64,000 nt of DNA from NCBI GenBank assembly GCA_036277115.1, contig DASUNM010000011.1, positions 124,001 to 188,000 on the forward strand, given 5' to 3'. Both the position numbers and the translations under genes were made by a program. This stretch comes from Pyrinomonadaceae bacterium. Lineage in GTDB: Bacteria; Acidobacteriota; Blastocatellia; Pyrinomonadales; Pyrinomonadaceae. The stretch's first letter is position 1, and every line of letters starts with the position of its first letter. Shown here in pieces: positions 49,751 through 59,072 of the stretch. The notes beneath the pieces were generated by a model that was not told where the DNA came from, did no database searches, and saw only the letters and a list, made by a program, of their open reading frames with translations.

Positions 49751-51094
49751 TTAGACGGCTTGCGAAAAAGTGCGTGCCTGGGGCTGTTGCCGTCGCAGAC
49801 GATAATCGAAAAACATGCACGCGTTGCGGAGAAACGGCCGCCCTTGCTCGGTGAGCCTAAGCCGGTCGCCGTGAACGTCAACCAGTCCGTCGCTGATGAG
49901 CGATGAGAGGAATTGTCTTGCGTCATCAGGCTGTCGCTCGCGCAGTTCGACTTCAAAGCGAGTCATGAATTCCAGAATCTGCTCGCGCAGTTCGCGATCC
50001 TCTTCCGAAAGCAAATGTCCACGGAATGTAGGAATCTCGCCTTGCGAGACGCGCCGCTCATAAACCGGAAAAGCTTTTTCGTTCTGATGAAAGCAAGTGG
50101 GCGCTTCTGAAATTGCGCTTACACCGAGGCCTAGCAGCACATCGGTGCGCCTCTCTGTGTAGCCCTGAAAATTGCGATGCAGAGTGCCTTCGCGTTGAGC
50201 TTGGGCCATGCCGTCGTGCGGCAATGCGAAGTGATCCATGCCAATTTCAGCGTAACCGGCAGTCTGGAGTTTCGCGCGCGCCATCTCGTAAAGCGCTCGT
50301 TTGTCAGCGGCCCTGGGAATGTCTTCGTCGGTGTAGCTTCGCTGCGCAGGCTTAATCCAGGGCACGAGCGCAAAGCTGTAGAGTGCGATTCGATCGGGAC
50401 GCAAATCGATCGTCTTGTCCACGCTCTCTGAAAACCGCTCGATAGTCTGTTTCGGCAGGCCGTAAATCAAATCGTAGTTGATTGACGTGTAGCCGAGTTC
50501 GCGCGCAACGTCCGTGCAGGTCTTCGTCACTTCGTAAGGCTGATGGCGATTTACGATGCGTTGGACCTCCGGATCGAAGTCCTGCACGCCGATCGAGACG
50601 CGTGTGAACCCAAGCTCGCGCAGCGTTTTCAAATGTTCGCGCGTGGTGTGGCCCGGATGAACTTCGACCGAGGCTTCAAACCGATCCGGATCGATCGTCG
50701 TCTCAGCCAAGATCGGTTTTAGAATTTGCCGCAGACTCTCAGGCGCGAAAAACGTCGGCGTGCCGCCGCCCAGATGAATGCCGAGCAACGAGCGTTCGCG
50801 CAACTTCGGGACGCGGTTACGATAGAGATTCCATTCAGTCAGTAACAATTCCTGGTAGCCGATTTCGCGCTGGTGATTGCGCGTGATGACGGTATTGCAT
50901 GCGCAGAATGTGCAGAGGGTTTCACAGAACGGAAGGTGAAGATAAAGGGACCAGGACGCTTGCTCGTCTGCGAAAGCTGAAGAGAGTTCCGTCAGCCACT
51001 CCTCAGTCGTCGGCGTGTCGCTCCAGAAGGGAACGGTCGGATAGCTTGTATAGCGCGGCGCCGGGACGTCGTACTTGGCAAAAAGATCGTTCAC
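49751..51094 (-). CDS. hemN: Oxygen-independent coproporphyrinogen III dehydrogenase
   Basis: Radical-SAM enzyme converting coproporphyrinogen III to protoporphyrinogen IX. Cluster motif CETLCTFCAC (CX3CX2CXC), which includes the fourth Cys that separates HemN from HemW. YLHLPFCETLC, GGGTPTFF and DLIYGLPKQT are also family-typical. 447 residues. Its start overlaps the hemE stop by ATGA. Confidence 0.93.
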   Translation of the reverse strand: MNDLFAKYDVPAPRYTSYPTVPFWSDTPTTEEWLTELSSAFADEQASWSLYLHLPFCETLCTFCACNTVITRNHQREIGYQELLLTEWNLYRNRVPKLRERSLLGIHLGGGTPTFFAPESLRQILKPILAETTIDPDRFEASVEVHPGHTTREHLKTLRELGFTRVSIGVQDFDPEVQRIVNRHQPYEVTKTCTDVARELGYTSINYDLIYGLPKQTIERFSESVDKTIDLRPDRIALYSFALVPWIKPAQRSYTDEDIPRAADKRALYEMARAKLQTAGYAEIGMDHFALPHDGMAQAQREGTLHRNFQGYTERRTDVLLGLGVSAISEAPTCFHQNEKAFPVYERRVSQGEIPTFRGHLLSEEDRELREQILEFMTRFEVELRERQPDDARQFLSSLISDGLVDVHGDRLRLTEQGRPFLRNACMFFDYRLRRQQPQARTFSQAV

Positions 51095-52290
51095 TGCAGG
51101 ACCTCTCTAACAGTATTAACAAAGTGTCGCACATTCTCTTCCGGAGTTTTCGGCAGGACACCGTGACCGAGTCCGCAAATCCAGCCCGTGCGATCGTGCG
51201 TCAATAATGGCTGGAGAAACTGTTCAAGACTTCGCTTGAAATCATCCCGGCTCGTCAATAGGAGATTCTGATCGAAGTTGCCCTGAATGAAACCGTGCGG
51301 AAATTGTTCAAAGGCATCGCGCAAATCCCAATTGTGATCGACACCGATGCCGGCCCAGCCGCCATTCGTGAACAGCGCATGATCGAGATGCTCGCGAGTG
51401 GTGTTTTTCGAGTAGTAACCAAGTCTGTCCGGAAAACGCTGCGTAAGCCGCTCGAGCTGCGGCACGACTTCAGCCTTGAAAACGTCGGATCCAAGTTCGC
51501 CCGCGGCCGTGTCAAAAATCATCACCAGCTCGGCTCCATTCGCTAACTGTAGTTCGATGTTCTTAATCAATAACGGAACCAGCGTCTGGCAGAACTTCTC
51601 AAACAATTGCAATTCTTGTTTCGCGCGCACGACGTTCTTATGCGTTCCTTCAACAGCGTAAACAAACAGCGTCCAGGGTCCACCGACAAAGCCGATCAAA
51701 CTCTTGTCATGGGGCAACAACTGTCGCGTTGCGCGCATGGCGTCGCCCTGGAAGAGAAGGCTTGGCCCTGCCTCATCGACCGCGCGTAGCTTCCCGAATG
51801 TCTGCGGCGTCAATTTCCAGCCGAGTTGTGGGCCGGCATCCGTGTACTGCAAGCCCATCCCGAGCGCTTCCAGGGGGAACAGCAGATCGCTAAAGAGAAT
51901 CGCCGCGTCAAAATCAAAGTCCATCACCGGACCGAGGGCTACGTGAGCTGCCAACTCAGGCTGCTTACAGAGATCCATAAACGAAAACTGTCGTCGCAGA
52001 TCCTGATAGTGGCGGTGATAACGTCCGGCCTGGCGCATGAGCCAGATGGGCGGCGAGGCCTGCGGCACTCGGGCTAGCGCGTTATGAAAGCGGCTGTTGC
52101 CGAGTTGGAGTGCGCCGGGTCCGACGGGCTGACTCTCATTCATACCTCGCTTCAGCGAGGTGTCTTGGCCTGTAGTTGCGGTATCGAGCCGATTCAACGG
52201 CGTATCGGAAAACCGTTCAAACGGTTCCAGACACTTCCGTCGGGCGTTTTCATCTCGCTGAAGCGAGGTGTGAATGAGAGTTCCGGTCAT
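51091..52290 (-). CDS. hemE: Uroporphyrinogen decarboxylase with repeat-derived N-terminal insert
   Basis: Decarboxylates uroporphyrinogen III to coproporphyrinogen III. Core motifs: PPIWLMRQAGRYHRHYQDLR (substrate Arg), FDFDAAILFSDLLFPLEALG (catalytic Asp) and GLGHGVLPKTP. ATG 52290 is chosen because AAAGAGG stands seven bases upstream. That gives 399 residues, about 45 more than normal: residues 5 to about 49 are encoded by a family A palindromic repeat. An ATG at 52143, inside the repeat's right end, would give a normal 350-residue protein; a GTG at 52323 overlaps the regulator. Twenty-five bases separate ATG 52290 from the regulator stop. Confidence 0.92.
   Translation of the reverse strand: MTGTLIHTSLQRDENARRKCLEPFERFSDTPLNRLDTATTGQDTSLKRGMNESQPVGPGALQLGNSRFHNALARVPQASPPIWLMRQAGRYHRHYQDLRRQFSFMDLCKQPELAAHVALGPVMDFDFDAAILFSDLLFPLEALGMGLQYTDAGPQLGWKLTPQTFGKLRAVDEAGPSLLFQGDAMRATRQLLPHDKSLIGFVGGPWTLFVYAVEGTHKNVVRAKQELQLFEKFCQTLVPLLIKNIELQLANGAELVMIFDTAAGELGSDVFKAEVVPQLERLTQRFPDRLGYYSKNTTREHLDHALFTNGGWAGIGVDHNWDLRDAFEQFPHGFIQGNFDQNLLLTSRDDFKRSLEQFLQPLLTHDRTGWICGLGHGVLPKTPEENVRHFVNTVREVLQ
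52133..52280. repeat. Palindromic dispersed repeat, family A, inside hemE
   Basis: CTCTCATTCATACCTCGCTT at the low end and AAGCGAGGTGTGAATGAGAG at the high end are inverted copies with one mismatch. The centre has AAACCGTTCAAACGGTT, as in the copy at 820-940. It lies in the 5' part of hemE and is read through in frame. Confidence 0.8.
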
Positions 52291-52297
52291 CCGAATG

Positions 52298-52304
52298 CCT
52301 CTTT
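52298..52304 (-). promoter_or_regulatory. Ribosome-binding site deciding the hemE start
   Basis: AAAGAGG followed by CATTCGG and ATG 52290. It lies outside the repeat, so the original start of hemE was probably here before the repeat entered. Confidence 0.6.
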
Positions 52305-52315
52305 GTTCATTCCGA

Positions 52316-53014
52316 TCAACCACCCACTATCCCGACTGGTCGGGGTTCTGACTGTGCATTCCATTGGTACCCGACGCCACGAACTGAGCGAATAAATTCA
52401 CTTTTTTCATCGCCCAAAGACTGCCGCAGGTGAACGATCATGTTATCTACCGTTCGTTGATTCCCCAGTTTGTCTTCACCCCAAAGCTTGTCGATGATTT
52501 CGTTGCGGCTGACCGCACGCGGTGCGCTGGTGATCAAAAGTTCCAGCAACTGAAAATCCCTGGCCGGCAGAAAATCTCTCTGGCCGTCCGGTTGCACGAT
52601 TAAGCGGCTGTCGAGTTCAATCACCCGCCCGTTGCACGAAATTCGATGAAGCGCGGGATGCCGTTCGAAAACATGCTTGACGCGCAGCAGCAGCTCGCGC
52701 AGGTGAAACGGCTTCGGAATAAATTCTTCCGCCCCGATTTCAAAACCTTCCAAGCGGTTCTCAGCAGTGCCCAGTGCGGTCATGAACATGATCGGAACTG
52801 AAGAACTCGCTTTTATGTCGCGCGCAATCTCGAACCCCGAACCGTCCGGCAAACTGACGTCCAGTATGATCAAGTCCCAGAGGCTTTCGCCGAACCTCTT
52901 TAAGGCGCGCTGCTTCGTCTCCACCCACGAGACTTCGTAACCCTCGCGCTCCAGCCGGTCGCGCAGAGTTGCGCCCAGCGAGCGATCGTCTTCGACCAGC
53001 AAAATCGACTTCAT
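52316..53014 (-). CDS. OmpR/PhoB-type response regulator
   Basis: Receiver domain with the acidic pair Asp9/Asp10, phosphorylatable Asp52 (LIILDVSLPDGS) and Lys101 (FIPKPF). A winged-helix DNA-binding domain covers about 130-222 (NEIIDKLWGEDKLGNQRTVD, VRGVGYQW). 232 residues. Its start overlaps the kinase stop by ATGA, and hemE starts 25 bases after its stop, so it is embedded in the heme block. The target genes are unknown; heme genes are obvious candidates. Confidence 0.94.
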   Translation of the reverse strand: MKSILLVEDDRSLGATLRDRLEREGYEVSWVETKQRALKRFGESLWDLIILDVSLPDGSGFEIARDIKASSSVPIMFMTALGTAENRLEGFEIGAEEFIPKPFHLRELLLRVKHVFERHPALHRISCNGRVIELDSRLIVQPDGQRDFLPARDFQLLELLITSAPRAVSRNEIIDKLWGEDKLGNQRTVDNMIVHLRQSLGDEKSEFIRSVRGVGYQWNAQSEPRPVGIVGG

Positions 53015-53939: not shown

Positions 53940-54079
53940 CTCCCTCTCCCTCTGGGAGAGGGCTGGGGTGAGGGAGCGAAGCTTAGCGGTAAATAACAAT
54001 ATGAATCTAGTCCCAGGAATTTTGGGAGGCCCGCCGCTACTAAGCTCTCACCCTCTCCCTCTCCCAGAGGGAGAGGGAA
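53940..54079. repeat. CCCTCTCCC-type dispersed palindrome, family F (copy 1)
   Basis: TCCCTCTCCCTCTGGGAGAG and GGGTGAGGG at the left pair with CTCACCC and CTCTCCCAGAGGGAGAGGGA at the right. It overlaps the 3' end of hemL. Copy 2 flanks the other end of hemL. Confidence 0.8.
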
Positions 54080-55385
54080 AAGCCTCTTCAACCGCCTCAC
54101 AAATCGCACGAGCGGATTTTTCCAACAGCTCATCAGTATGAGCCAGCGACATGAAACTTACCTCATAACCACTCGGCGCGAAGTAAACTCCACGACCCAG
54201 TGCGCCGTGAAAGATGCGCGCAAAGTTTTCAGCGTGATATGTCGGGATGTCTTCTAGCCGACGAATGACCTTATCAGTCTTCGCATGTAGCCAGAACAGA
54301 GAAGCCGCGCGCGTGATTTGCACCGGCAAGCCTCGTTCATCGAAGGTCGCATTCAGTTGATCGCAGAACTGCGCAGTTCGCTTTTCCAGCGTTTGAAAGG
54401 CGCCGACACGTTCAATCTTTTGCAGGGTCGTCAACCCGGCGCGCACACCAACAGGATTCGCGCTTAGTGTTCCGGCCTGATACACCGGTCCGGAAGGCGC
54501 GACCATCTCCATCAGATCGCGCCGCCCGCCGTACGCACCGACGGGAAATCCGCCGCCAATGACTTTGCCGTACGTCACGAGATCGGGTCGCATCCCCAGA
54601 ACTTCCGCCATGCCGCCCATCCCCAAGCGAAAACCGGAGATGACTTCGTCGAAAATGACCAGCGCCCCATGCCGGCGCGCGAGGTTAACCGTTTCTTCTA
54701 TGAATTCGCGCCGCTGAATCAACAGACCGTAATTCGCCGGCAGCGGTTCAAGAATCACCGCGGCTATTTCCGATCCGTGCGTGTCGAACACCGCGCGCAC
54801 GCTCTCTTCTTCATCCAGCGACGCAACCAGCGTTTCGCTCGCAACATTTTTGGAAACGCCGGCGCTTGAGCTGGCGGCAACTCCGGCCAATCCACTTCCG
54901 GCTTTCACCAAAAGGGAATCGGCGTGGCCGTGATAGCAGCCTTCGAATTTCAGAATTCGCGAGCGCCCGGTCGCCGCCCGCGCTACGCGGAGCGCACTCA
55001 TCACCGCTTCCGTGCCCGAAGAAACGAAGCGCAGCATCTCGGCCCAGGGCACACGCGAAGTAATCCATTCGGCCAGTTCCAGTGAGTAAGGCTCGCACGC
55101 GCCGAAGCTCCAGGCGGTGTCAATTGCTTCCTTCACAACTTCGGCGACATCCGGATCGCGATGACCGAGCATCAACGGCCCGAAGCTCTGACAGAAATCA
55201 ATGTAGTCCTCACCCTCAACGGAAGTCAGAATCGCGCCCTGCGCGCTGCGGAAAAAGACGGGCGTTCCGCCAACGCTTTTGAAGGCACGCACGGGACTGT
55301 GTACGCCGCCGGGTGAAAGGCGCAGAGCACGTTCGAAGAGGTCGTGCGACGAATCAAGAACTGGTGCTGTTTGATGAGACGACAT
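54048..55385 (-). CDS. hemL: Glutamate-1-semialdehyde 2,1-aminomutase
   Basis: PLP enzyme making 5-aminolevulinate from glutamate-1-semialdehyde. [11 protein letters not shown] at the N-terminus; the PLP Lys is in [36 protein letters not shown] and [13 protein letters not shown] are typical. 445 residues. The last nine residues (PSPSGRGRG) and the stop TGA are encoded by the family F repeat, so the ancestral C-terminus probably ended near EEAF. Flanked by the two-component system downstream and hemB upstream. Confidence 0.95.
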
Positions 55386-56558: not shown

Positions 56559-56641
56559 GTGTCGGTACCCGGAGCGGTAGCGACGGGATCAACATTCAAC
56601 TTGCGCGTCGATCCGGTCGCTACCGCTCCCGGTACTGACAC
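56559..56641. repeat. Palindromic repeat, family G (complete copy)
   Basis: GTGTCGGTACCCGGAGCGGT and the next 12 bases are mirrored by ATCCGGTCGCTACCGCTCCC ending in GACAC. It overlaps the hemC 3' end, supplying its last six codons and TAG. A half copy is at 33147-33178. Confidence 0.8.
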
Positions 56642-58179
56642 ATTTCCTCTAGCCAATGCTCGTGATCGAGAAATATGTGCGGCTCGATTCCGTGGCGTTG
56701 GAGTACTAGCTGTGTGTTGCCGGGCCCGCAGAAATGCGTCATCGATTTCATCCATGGATTCAAAGACAGCGCGCGTTCGAAACTCGATCCGCTCGTCCAG
56801 AAAAAGTAATATTTGCCTTCGATGTTGGGACCGTCGTCTTTCGGAACCAGACGATACGTCGGTAATGTTTGCATTCCATTTTCAAAGGAACCAGATGCGG
56901 GCAGGATACCCGCGCTCCCCGAAGAACCAGATGCGGATAAGATGCCCGCGCTCCCAGCGTGCGTCAGCTTTGTCCATTGCACTTCGGTCCCGGCAATCGT
57001 TTCGATCCGCGGATGCTCCTGTTCGCCTAAACCCTCGCCGGAGCCGTTCACCCAGACGCCGCGCTGTGCCAGGCGTCCCCACGTCTTCAGGCCGCTCGCC
57101 CAAACCAGCTGCGAATCAGAAGTAGAAGCGTCCTCCGGCAACGCATCGGCCTTGGCAATCCACAAAGGCGAATCCGGTATTGTCGCAGGTATCGGCTCGC
57201 GTTTGAACCAGTCAGAGTCCGCAGGCTTGAGTGGCCAAAGCAGGTCGGGCGCCACTTTCGCCGGCCGCGGGCGCGAAGCTGACAAGCGATACTCATTCAG
57301 TGCCGCGCCATCGTCAGTTAGCCCGCGGAGAGAGGTGATTTCGCCGTACGGCCGGCGCAAGACACTGGCGCCTATCTTTTGATGGCAGCCGCCACCATAA
57401 CCGCGCAGAATCTCGCGCTCACGCTGAGCGGTCGCAAATGTCTCGGCACAGTTAATAGGCGCGAGCAGTTCCATCAACTCAGGACGGTGACTCTGGATCT
57501 CAACCGCGAGCGCGCCCTGCGCCGGCGCACACGGATTGGCGCGCAGCGGCAGAACCATCCACAGGCACTGCGACAGAGCTTTTCGCAGTTCAGCTTTCGT
57601 GGCGGCGAACTCTTCTGCCGGCGCTTCCAACAGACGATCGAGCGCGGCTTTGGCGATAATCAACGCGTCCGCGCCCGGATTCCACATTTTGCGCACGCGC
57701 GTCGGCACGTTGCCGCGAACCGGTTCAAACGTCAGTTCGTCAACTTTTGCGGGAAGCGCAGTTCGCAAAAATGAGTCGAGATTGTAACTGCGTCGCGGCG
57801 ACGAGGTGAGAATCGTAAATCGCCCGGTGCGCCGAGCTTCCTCCCATCGATCTCTTCGCACCAACATCAAATCGCGCACGTCGGCGCGCGGGAGTGTTGC
57901 CGCGATCAAAGTCTCGCCGTCATCCTCTATCGCTAGGTCTTTCCATGAATGCACAGCCAGATCGTACTTGCCGGCGAGCAGACCCTCGCGCAGGTCCTGG
58001 GTGAAGACACCTTTCTCAGGCATCTGCCACAGCGGATCGGTTTGATTCTTATCGCCGAGTGATTCGTGAAAGGAATATTCGATACTGATTTGTGGGTGTG
58101 CGTTTTGAAGAGCGCGGCCGACTTGAAGTGCCTGAATACGCGCCAACTCGCTGCGACGCGCAGCGAGAACTAGGCGCAT
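56620..58179 (-). CDS. hemC: Hydroxymethylbilane synthase with a HemD-like C-terminal extension
   Basis: Polymerises four porphobilinogens. Residues 1-300 are HemC: VLAARRSELARIQALQVGRA, HSWKDL (catalytic Asp81) and GYGGGCHQKIGA with cofactor Cys265. Residues about 335-519 resemble the two halves of uroporphyrinogen-III synthase: PLWIAKADALPED, then FFWTSGSSFERALS and CGPGNTQLVLQRHGIEP, weakly matching HemD's FTSxxxV and IGxxTxxxL patterns. Two 12-residue units (GSAGILSASGSS, GSAGILPASGSF) lie in the linker (409-432). ATG 58179 is chosen; a frame extension to 58431 runs through hemA. The last six residues come from a palindromic repeat. Confidence 0.88.
   Translation of the reverse strand: MRLVLAARRSELARIQALQVGRALQNAHPQISIEYSFHESLGDKNQTDPLWQMPEKGVFTQDLREGLLAGKYDLAVHSWKDLAIEDDGETLIAATLPRADVRDLMLVRRDRWEEARRTGRFTILTSSPRRSYNLDSFLRTALPAKVDELTFEPVRGNVPTRVRKMWNPGADALIIAKAALDRLLEAPAEEFAATKAELRKALSQCLWMVLPLRANPCAPAQGALAVEIQSHRPELMELLAPINCAETFATAQREREILRGYGGGCHQKIGASVLRRPYGEITSLRGLTDDGAALNEYRLSASRPRPAKVAPDLLWPLKPADSDWFKREPIPATIPDSPLWIAKADALPEDASTSDSQLVWASGLKTWGRLAQRGVWVNGSGEGLGEQEHPRIETIAGTEVQWTKLTHAGSAGILSASGSSGSAGILPASGSFENGMQTLPTYRLVPKDDGPNIEGKYYFFWTSGSSFERALSLNPWMKSMTHFCGPGNTQLVLQRHGIEPHIFLDHEHWLEEMCQYRER
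56888..56955. repeat. 36-bp tandem repeat within hemC
   Basis: GAACCAGATGCGGGCAGGAT (56888) recurs 36 bases later at 56924 with a few changes; both end CCCGCGCTCCC. Length is a multiple of three and keeps the frame. The GGATNCCCGCGCTCCC core looks like an inserted palindrome-derived element. Confidence 0.7.
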
Positions 58180-59072
58180 AAATCTTCCCAACCGAAGGGC
58201 CGAAACTGCGCCTGTTCGATCAGCCTCTGGCCTGCTTTCCTGATTTCGTCCCGCGCCGCGGCCACGCGCGCAGCTGGTTCGGGGCGCTCGTTTTTTAAAG
58301 CGGCGAACATCTCTGACAGTCTGACCACAGGCAACGAACAGTTCAATGGATCGGTTTCTGCTTCGCCGCGCAGGTCGAGGACCTTCACGACTGGAGTCAG
58401 CTGCGCCGCCATCCATTCCTTCACATCGCACGCGCTGATCGGTGCTGCAATTACGAGCGCGGTCTCTCGGCTTTCCTCAACCGGTGCGGTCAAGGCGAAT
58501 TGCGCCAGACGGACTTGTGGAAACTTTTCCATAAGCGGTCCGGCGCGCTCTGGATTGCGTGCGCAAACAGTTACGTCGGTCTTGCCAACCACCCAGGGAA
58601 GAATCTCTTCAGCCAGCTGGCCCGCGCCCAGCACCACAACGGAGGGAACCGCCTTCAGATGTCGCCTCACCATGCCGCCATACGATTGGCTGCCGAGGCC
58701 TTCGAGATGCAGCCGCCGCACGTGCTTAGCATCGACCAGCAGGTCGGAAGTTACCCGGCGCAGGAACGCACCCCATTCATTCATCGGAAATCTTGCGCTC
58801 GCGCAGAACTCTTTGAACTGGCCCATGACTGCTGTTTCAGCCACCAGCGGTGAACGCAGACCGCAAATCACTTCGAGCAGAAAATTGTGGGCGACTTGTC
58901 CTTCATAAGTTTCAAAGCCTTCGGGTAGATCGGGAATCAGCGCAGCGCTTTCCGATTTGTGCAGCAGGACGATTCGGCGAAGGCAGGTCTGCCACTCGAG
59001 CGCGTTGATGGCCACCGGCCACCTCTCGCCCGGTTTGGCGGGATGGTGCAGAACGATTAGATCTTCCAGCAC
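58170..59072 (-). CDS. hemA: Divergent glutamyl-tRNA reductase (HemA-like)
   Basis: Expected to reduce glutamyl-tRNA to glutamate-1-semialdehyde. Recognisable parts: CGLRSPLVAETAVMGQFKEF (the GLDSMVVGEpQIlGQVK motif, with the His at 62) and the dinucleotide strand VVVLGAGQLAEEIL (145-158). The motif carrying the catalytic Cys (usually TCNRxE) is replaced by RIVLLHKSES (33-42) with no Cys; Cys30 lies just upstream. Also absent are the C-terminal dimerisation helices: 300 residues versus about 420. It overlaps the hemC start by ten bases, and the position at the head of a hem block supports the family call. Confidence 0.78.
   Translation of the reverse strand: MLEDLIVLHHPAKPGERWPVAINALEWQTCLRRIVLLHKSESAALIPDLPEGFETYEGQVAHNFLLEVICGLRSPLVAETAVMGQFKEFCASARFPMNEWGAFLRRVTSDLLVDAKHVRRLHLEGLGSQSYGGMVRRHLKAVPSVVVLGAGQLAEEILPWVVGKTDVTVCARNPERAGPLMEKFPQVRLAQFALTAPVEESRETALVIAAPISACDVKEWMAAQLTPVVKVLDLRGEAETDPLNCSLPVVRLSEMFAALKNERPEPAARVAAARDEIRKAGQRLIEQAQFRPFGWEDLCA

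Follow-up and report, generated by a model that had tools for sequence, protein, structure and literature searches.

The locus described here raises the question of how far upstream a bacterial hemE gene is translated, and whether a palindromic repeat at its 5' end is thereby read into protein. The gene lies in a 64,000-nucleotide (nt) stretch of a Pyrinomonadaceae bacterium (GenBank assembly GCA_036277115.1, contig DASUNM010000011.1, positions 124,001 to 188,000), referred to below as the window; positions are those of the window, and (−) denotes the minus strand. On that strand, the genes follow in the order sensor kinase, response regulator, hemE, and hemN. The genome that the window comes from (G000) was analyzed together with the others of its genus, the genus set being seven draft genomes (G000-G006). 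The favoured reading, with a probability of about 0.62, is that palindromic elements have rewritten the 5' end of hemE repeatedly and that the insert present in the window, a copy of a repeat named family A, is probably translated. The features concerned were the following.

51091-52290 (−), hemE coding sequence read from ATG 52290, 399 amino acids (aa), based on the open frame and a URO-D match
52132-52281 (−), family A palindromic element, 150 nt, codons 4-53 of hemE, based on inverted arms, paralogues, and fold
52251-52281 (−), 5' arm of the element in the hemE sense, 31 nt
52132-52162 (−), 3' arm of the element in the hemE sense, 31 nt, holding ATG 52143
52288-52290 (−), favoured hemE start ATG, counterpart of the ATGA(C/G) start of relatives
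52298-52304 (−), AAAGAGG, Shine-Dalgarno-like, 7 nt 5' of ATG 52290, based on sequence and duplex energy
52141-52143 (−), alternative hemE start ATG in the 3' arm; GTG in most other recognised copies
52195-52197 (−), in-frame TTG within the element, a weak start candidate
52321-52323 (−), in-frame GTG upstream of ATG 52290, within the end of the regulator gene

The original prediction, made from the window alone, had the hemE frame crossing a dispersed repeat, and this was borne out: no stop codon was found from ATG 52290 across the family A repeat into HemE, giving 399 aa, and the stop-free frame reaches up to GTG 52323. The second ATG that it had placed in the repeat, at 52143, does yield a protein of the usual length (350 aa). 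The repeat is in frame as claimed, but its extent had to be changed from 52133-52323 to 52132-52281, and the extra N-terminal residues, put at about 45, number 50. The product was identified as HemE by Pfam URO-D (E 2.3e-77, residues 65-396 of the 399-aa form) and by TIGR01464 (E 2.6e-69), the latter with 233.8 bits, which is below the cut-off of that model (302.95).

The two arms of the element are 94% complementary, and its predicted RNA fold (−76.5 kcal/mol) is far more stable than that of 200 shuffled sequences (−38.5 kcal/mol, z −10.6). The element is dispersed: BLAST returned 31 matches in its own genome, including itself and matches on the reverse strand, and at four other places the match, at 69-73% identity, extended over nearly the whole element. 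Common to the full copies are outer hairpins (CACCTCGC-TTCA-GCGAGGTG) and inner ones (CCGTT/AACGG); the DNA between them varies. A covariance model built from five copies gave 71 strand-matches in G000 (E <= 0.01), one place often being counted on each strand, and matched all seven genus genomes at the same threshold. Within the taxonomic family, 9 of the 41 sampled genomes (three of the 41 from this genus) matched at E <= 1e-5. A second, shorter family A-like element was observed in the window at 817-943 (59.8 bits to the covariance model).

An open frame is not a general property of these copies. Only 10 of 174 frames were stop-free in the other copies, and in the frame equivalent to that of hemE, 9 of 46 were, after 12 further strand-reads lacking a recognised end motif had been dropped; the reads came from several genus genomes with most places entered twice, so that these are rough figures. 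Since 9/46 has to be multiplied by one third for the register, an open frame in register with hemE would arise by luck about once in 15 cases. The codon at the position of 52143 was GTG in 37 of 60 strand-reads (two of the 60 being those of hemE itself), ATG in the hemE copy only, another codon in 10, and not recognised in 12. In a survey of 21 other family A loci in G000, two of which gave no arm by pattern, an open reading frame (ORF) of at least 200 aa touched the element span at eight, at two of these by 2 nt only. In none of the 21 contexts were protein domains seen both upstream and downstream of the element. A Pfam scan of four loci (L107, L108, L110, L124) placed the domains downstream of the element, so none of these is a proven coding insertion, and the hemE insertion is therefore unusual among family A copies. 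Two side observations concern such loci. At L108 (1-2124, −), a propeller-repeat protein (Reg_prop) has a likely GTG start inside a family A copy, and its N-terminus may be repeat-derived. At L117 (1421-2056, 2009-2680), an ORF that looks like riboflavin synthase ends in SNTSLQRGD, a C-terminus supplied by a family A arm.

The comparison with hemE of relatives, for which the original prediction had called, was made at the junction between the regulator gene and hemE in five of them (G001, G002, G004, G005, and G006), and the family A insert was absent from all. Other repeats occupy the junction there. It holds a family B repeat (TTTGGAGTG...CACTCCAAA) in G005 and G001, an arm pair resembling family B by eye in G006, a family C repeat in G002, and a family D repeat in G004. 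Families B and C matched all seven genus genomes (family C with 82 matches each in G000 and G002), and family D matched six of the seven, G002 being the exception. The junction DNA differs between the relatives read, with G001 and G005 alike. Repeat insertion at the front end of hemE is not an isolated case, a point that the original prediction had missed. The corresponding features in the window were these.

52316-53014 (−), response regulator gene, upstream of hemE
52313-52357 (−), arm of a fifth repeat family (family E), holding the last codons and the stop of the regulator
52105-52118 (−), probable stub of a family B 3' arm (CCGGCGCACTCCAA), aligned to the G001 arm
52102-52104 (−), CTC codon, at the position of the outgroup start Met in the HemE alignment
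49751-51094 (−), hemN, downstream of hemE

The family E arm is 89% identical over 45 nt to G000:C23:524209-524253 (E 3.2e-10), and paired copies of this family are present in L127 and L128. The tail of the regulator continues into the family C repeat in G002. The score of the alignment of 52105-52118 to the G001 family B arm was equalled by 5 of 2000 shuffles. In the outgroup L049, a metagenome-assembled genome (MAG) of Bdellovibrionales, there is no spacer: the regulator stop lies 11 nt inside hemE, which starts MANERF. The start Met of this protein aligns with the I/L/M column of the genus' Q/K-I/L/M-G-N/H. G006 keeps an ATG in that column, directly 3' of the repeat arm and buried at 41.3 kcal/mol. 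Together with the CTC of the window, the outgroup Met column and the buried ATG suggest that family B opened the junction, that a start further up took over, and that the old start decayed. A gene tree was rejected as a means of dating the insertions: it was rooted at its midpoint (for drawing), it placed G000 with the outgroup, and three of its six inner branches were open. The interior of family B was likewise rejected as the source of the new start, as five distinct full copies had no interior ATGA(C/G)T on the strand read, by a strict pattern applied to the fetched loci; among the five was the hemE junction of G005, which does contain the start but had been read on the other strand. At hemE, the family B interior may be native spacer.

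For the window, the favoured course of events would be the insertion of a non-autonomous family A palindrome directly after codon 3 of hemE, downstream of the start used in the genus. With its 150 nt (50 codons) stop-free and in register with hemE, the element would have left the gene readable; ribosomes would most likely initiate at ATG 52290 and then translate through it, and HemE would gain a 50-residue, probably unstructured N-terminal stretch outside the enzyme core. The predicted Shine-Dalgarno duplex with the 16S end is −5.8 kcal/mol at ATG 52290, a value reached or bettered by 6.6% of 1611 window ATGs, versus −0.6 kcal/mol at ATG 52143. ATG 52290 opens at 18.5 kcal/mol, and among 150 random ATGs of the window 22% are at least as closed; ATG 52143 needs 37.9 kcal/mol. 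In a longer context, the values are 20.6 versus 36.9 kcal/mol. All six genomes that could be read here (G000, G001, G002, G004, G005, and G006; the G003 contig ends within hemE) have an ATG followed by AC or AG at the equivalent position, and the opening energies of these shared starts in the relatives are 6.3-24.1 kcal/mol (that of G001 from a shorter stretch). With the element removed, hemE would read MTGQPVGPGALQLGN, near the length seen in relatives. ATG 52290 is favoured over ATG 52143 on these grounds, at the probability given above. The original prediction had called the locus a clear case of a repeat entering a reading frame; this was too strong, because a possible start lies at the 3' edge of the repeat and translation is not proven by sequence.

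Several observations weigh against initiation at ATG 52290, and most of them favour a different explanation, in which the element is effectively extragenic. It would then lie between the old start and the enzyme, its end would have become the new start by a change from GTG to ATG at 52143, HemE would be of ordinary size, and it would be by chance that the frame is open from 52290. The start homology across the genus was read by eye from short sequences and not from a scored alignment. For the shared starts of the relatives, the duplex with the 16S end reaches only −1.0 to +0.7 kcal/mol, and since these starts have no Shine-Dalgarno match, that argument for 52290 is weak. The number of residues before PPIW is 79 from 52290 and 30 from 52143, as compared with 26 in G002 and G004 and 39-40 in G001 and G005, so the shorter product has the usual length and is close to that of G002 and G004. 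Only in the hemE copy has the GTG of the family become ATG, a change that looks like the improvement of a start codon, and most other family A copies seen sit outside demonstrable coding sequence. Di Nocera et al. (PMC3733652) caution that misannotation may account for most of the repetitive extragenic palindromic sequences (REPs) assigned to N-terminal coding regions, which would then be extragenic. Yet ATG 52143 is buried in a 31-bp stem, only 1 of the 150 random ATGs being as closed, a GAGG stands just 1 nt before it, and an open in-register frame below a well-placed ATG is the roughly 1 in 15 coincidence estimated above. No terminator or promoter site of the scanned types was found in 52050-52420 (sigma-70 consensus only, for promoters), and there is thus no sigma-70-like promoter within the element that could yield a stem-free transcript; a terminator or promoter role of the element was rejected on the same scan. 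The extragenic explanation is the main competitor, though clearly the less probable one. That both starts are used, with the stem setting the ratio of long to short HemE and the repeat acting as a regulatory element, is improbable. The two ATGs share one frame, and coupling of the inner start to translation from above through the stem is conceivable, but the arrangement is not conserved in the differing junction DNA of the relatives, and no sign of regulation appeared in the results. Two possible starts in frame were correctly predicted, but their products are not equally likely, as 52143 lies within the stem and has almost no Shine-Dalgarno pairing.

If translation begins at ATG 52290, the added residues would probably form a loose and harmless tail, judging from structural comparison and modelling. 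All 20 solved-structure matches start at query residue 52 or later. The AlphaFold2 model of the 399-aa form, built with four sequences, had a mean predicted local distance difference test score (pLDDT) of 69.9; residues 1-62 scored below 50, though 3-28 were drawn as a helix.

In two of the relatives, translation of repeat DNA seems forced. The upper start in G001 is the sole ATG, GTG, or TTG before the HemE core, and in G005 only a TTG eight residues before PPIW precedes the core besides the upper start. As no other plausible start precedes the core, the protein of G001 must include the arm-encoded SKAASPLRSAAALQ, and that of G005 almost surely does; the family B arm is certainly coding in the former and very probably in the latter. 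The HemE of G005 further holds an internal insert, for which a palindromic copy on a different contig of G005 gave an alignment score of 68, versus at most 30 in 500 shuffles. BLAST with this insert returned three other pieces, in G005 only, and in the model of the window HemE the insert maps to the loop that connects helix 268-285 with strand 290-293.

Taken across the genus, palindromes of several families would have opened the regulator-hemE junction, the start would have moved upstream, and repeats would supply protein ends. We put at even odds the wider proposal that families A, B, C, and D and the family E arm landed successively at this junction, shifting the hemE start and supplying the N-terminus of HemE and, in the window and G002, the C-terminus of the regulator, with repeat turnover and not point mutation driving these ends.

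Two further genes of the window hold stretches of a similar kind. The hemC-like ORF (56620-58431; Porphobil_deam match, residues 88-319) contains an internal stretch SAGILSASGSSGSAGILPASGS of a short repeat at 56872-56961 (−), which matches 15 other places in the genome, and coding runs about 80 residues beyond it; the heme cluster thus seems to hold a further repeat that is read in frame. At the 3' end of the hemL ORF, the final residues are read from CCCTCTCCCTCTGGGAGAGGGAGAGGG at 54048-54089 (−), which looks like a palindromic repeat.

The regulator-hemE block (51091-53014) may have been acquired by transfer, as judged from sequence comparison. The HemE of the genus is 63% identical to that of L049 and 50% identical to that of an Oligoflexia MAG (L050), and only 31-36% identical to the HemE proteins matched in other genera of its own family. 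The regulator precedes hemE in L049 and L050 too.

As to how family A may move, mobilisation by the Y1 transposases of the genome, which resemble REP-associated tyrosine transposases (RAYTs), was rejected: the family A arm core was found in the flanks of 0 of 9 Y1_Tnp loci in G000, searched with up to three mismatches over about 1.5 kb (less where the contig ended). A family A copy (C27:240127) does occur some 2.2 kb away from one such gene (C27:242473), which was not counted as an association. At L117, an arm pair about 650 bp apart flanks a 144-aa ORF; this candidate for an autonomous copy was rejected, the ORF having no Pfam match and nothing pointing to a transposase. No parent insertion sequence with family A ends was found, Y1 transposases being the only ones looked for.

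The best-known palindromes read in frame within genes are those of Rickettsia, and among known systems these and intragenic REPs come closest to the present case. Rickettsia palindromic elements (Ogata et al. 2000, 2002) are, as reviewed in PMC10969869, palindromes of about 150 bp in several families, lying in frame in unrelated genes. Family A is like them in being a dispersed 150-nt palindrome with 31-nt arms and in being read in frame, over 50 codons in hemE, with a shorter such element in the HemE of G005. It is unlike them in lacking a conserved open frame (10/174 overall and 9/46 in the hemE-equivalent frame) and in that its copies do not lie largely inside genes (21 G000 loci). PMC3733652 describes GTAG and CGTC REPs and bacterial interspersed mosaic elements (BIMEs) as hairpin units in inverted pairs, mostly extragenic, with some in frame, and defines bacterial miniature inverted-repeat transposable elements (MITEs) by a length of 70-300 bp and terminal inverted repeats of 15-30 bp. 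Family A resembles intragenic REPs and BIMEs in its inverted hairpin pairs, mostly outside genes and sometimes read in frame, but no GTAG or CGTC tag was read beside its hairpin, the conserved flank being CATTCA, and unlike GTAG REPs it flanks no RAYT (Y1) gene at the nine loci. Its 150 nt and arms of about 30 bp are those of a MITE, but no target-site duplication was seen by eye in the flanks of five full copies. Because several tested marks of Rickettsia palindromic elements and REPs and the target duplication of MITEs are missing, the element in hemE is placed in the broad kind of palindromic repeats read in frame and in no named family. A search of the open-licence literature brought up no study of repeats of this kind in hemE or Blastocatellia.

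The outcome is similar to that in Rickettsia and is met here in Acidobacteriota-type genomes of 4-6 Mb, where a single orthologous gene end carries different repeats in different species. The series of junctions forms a natural set for asking how start codons shift and how repeats turn into protein. It also serves as a warning that, in genomes rich in repeats, the annotation of N-termini is not always correct.
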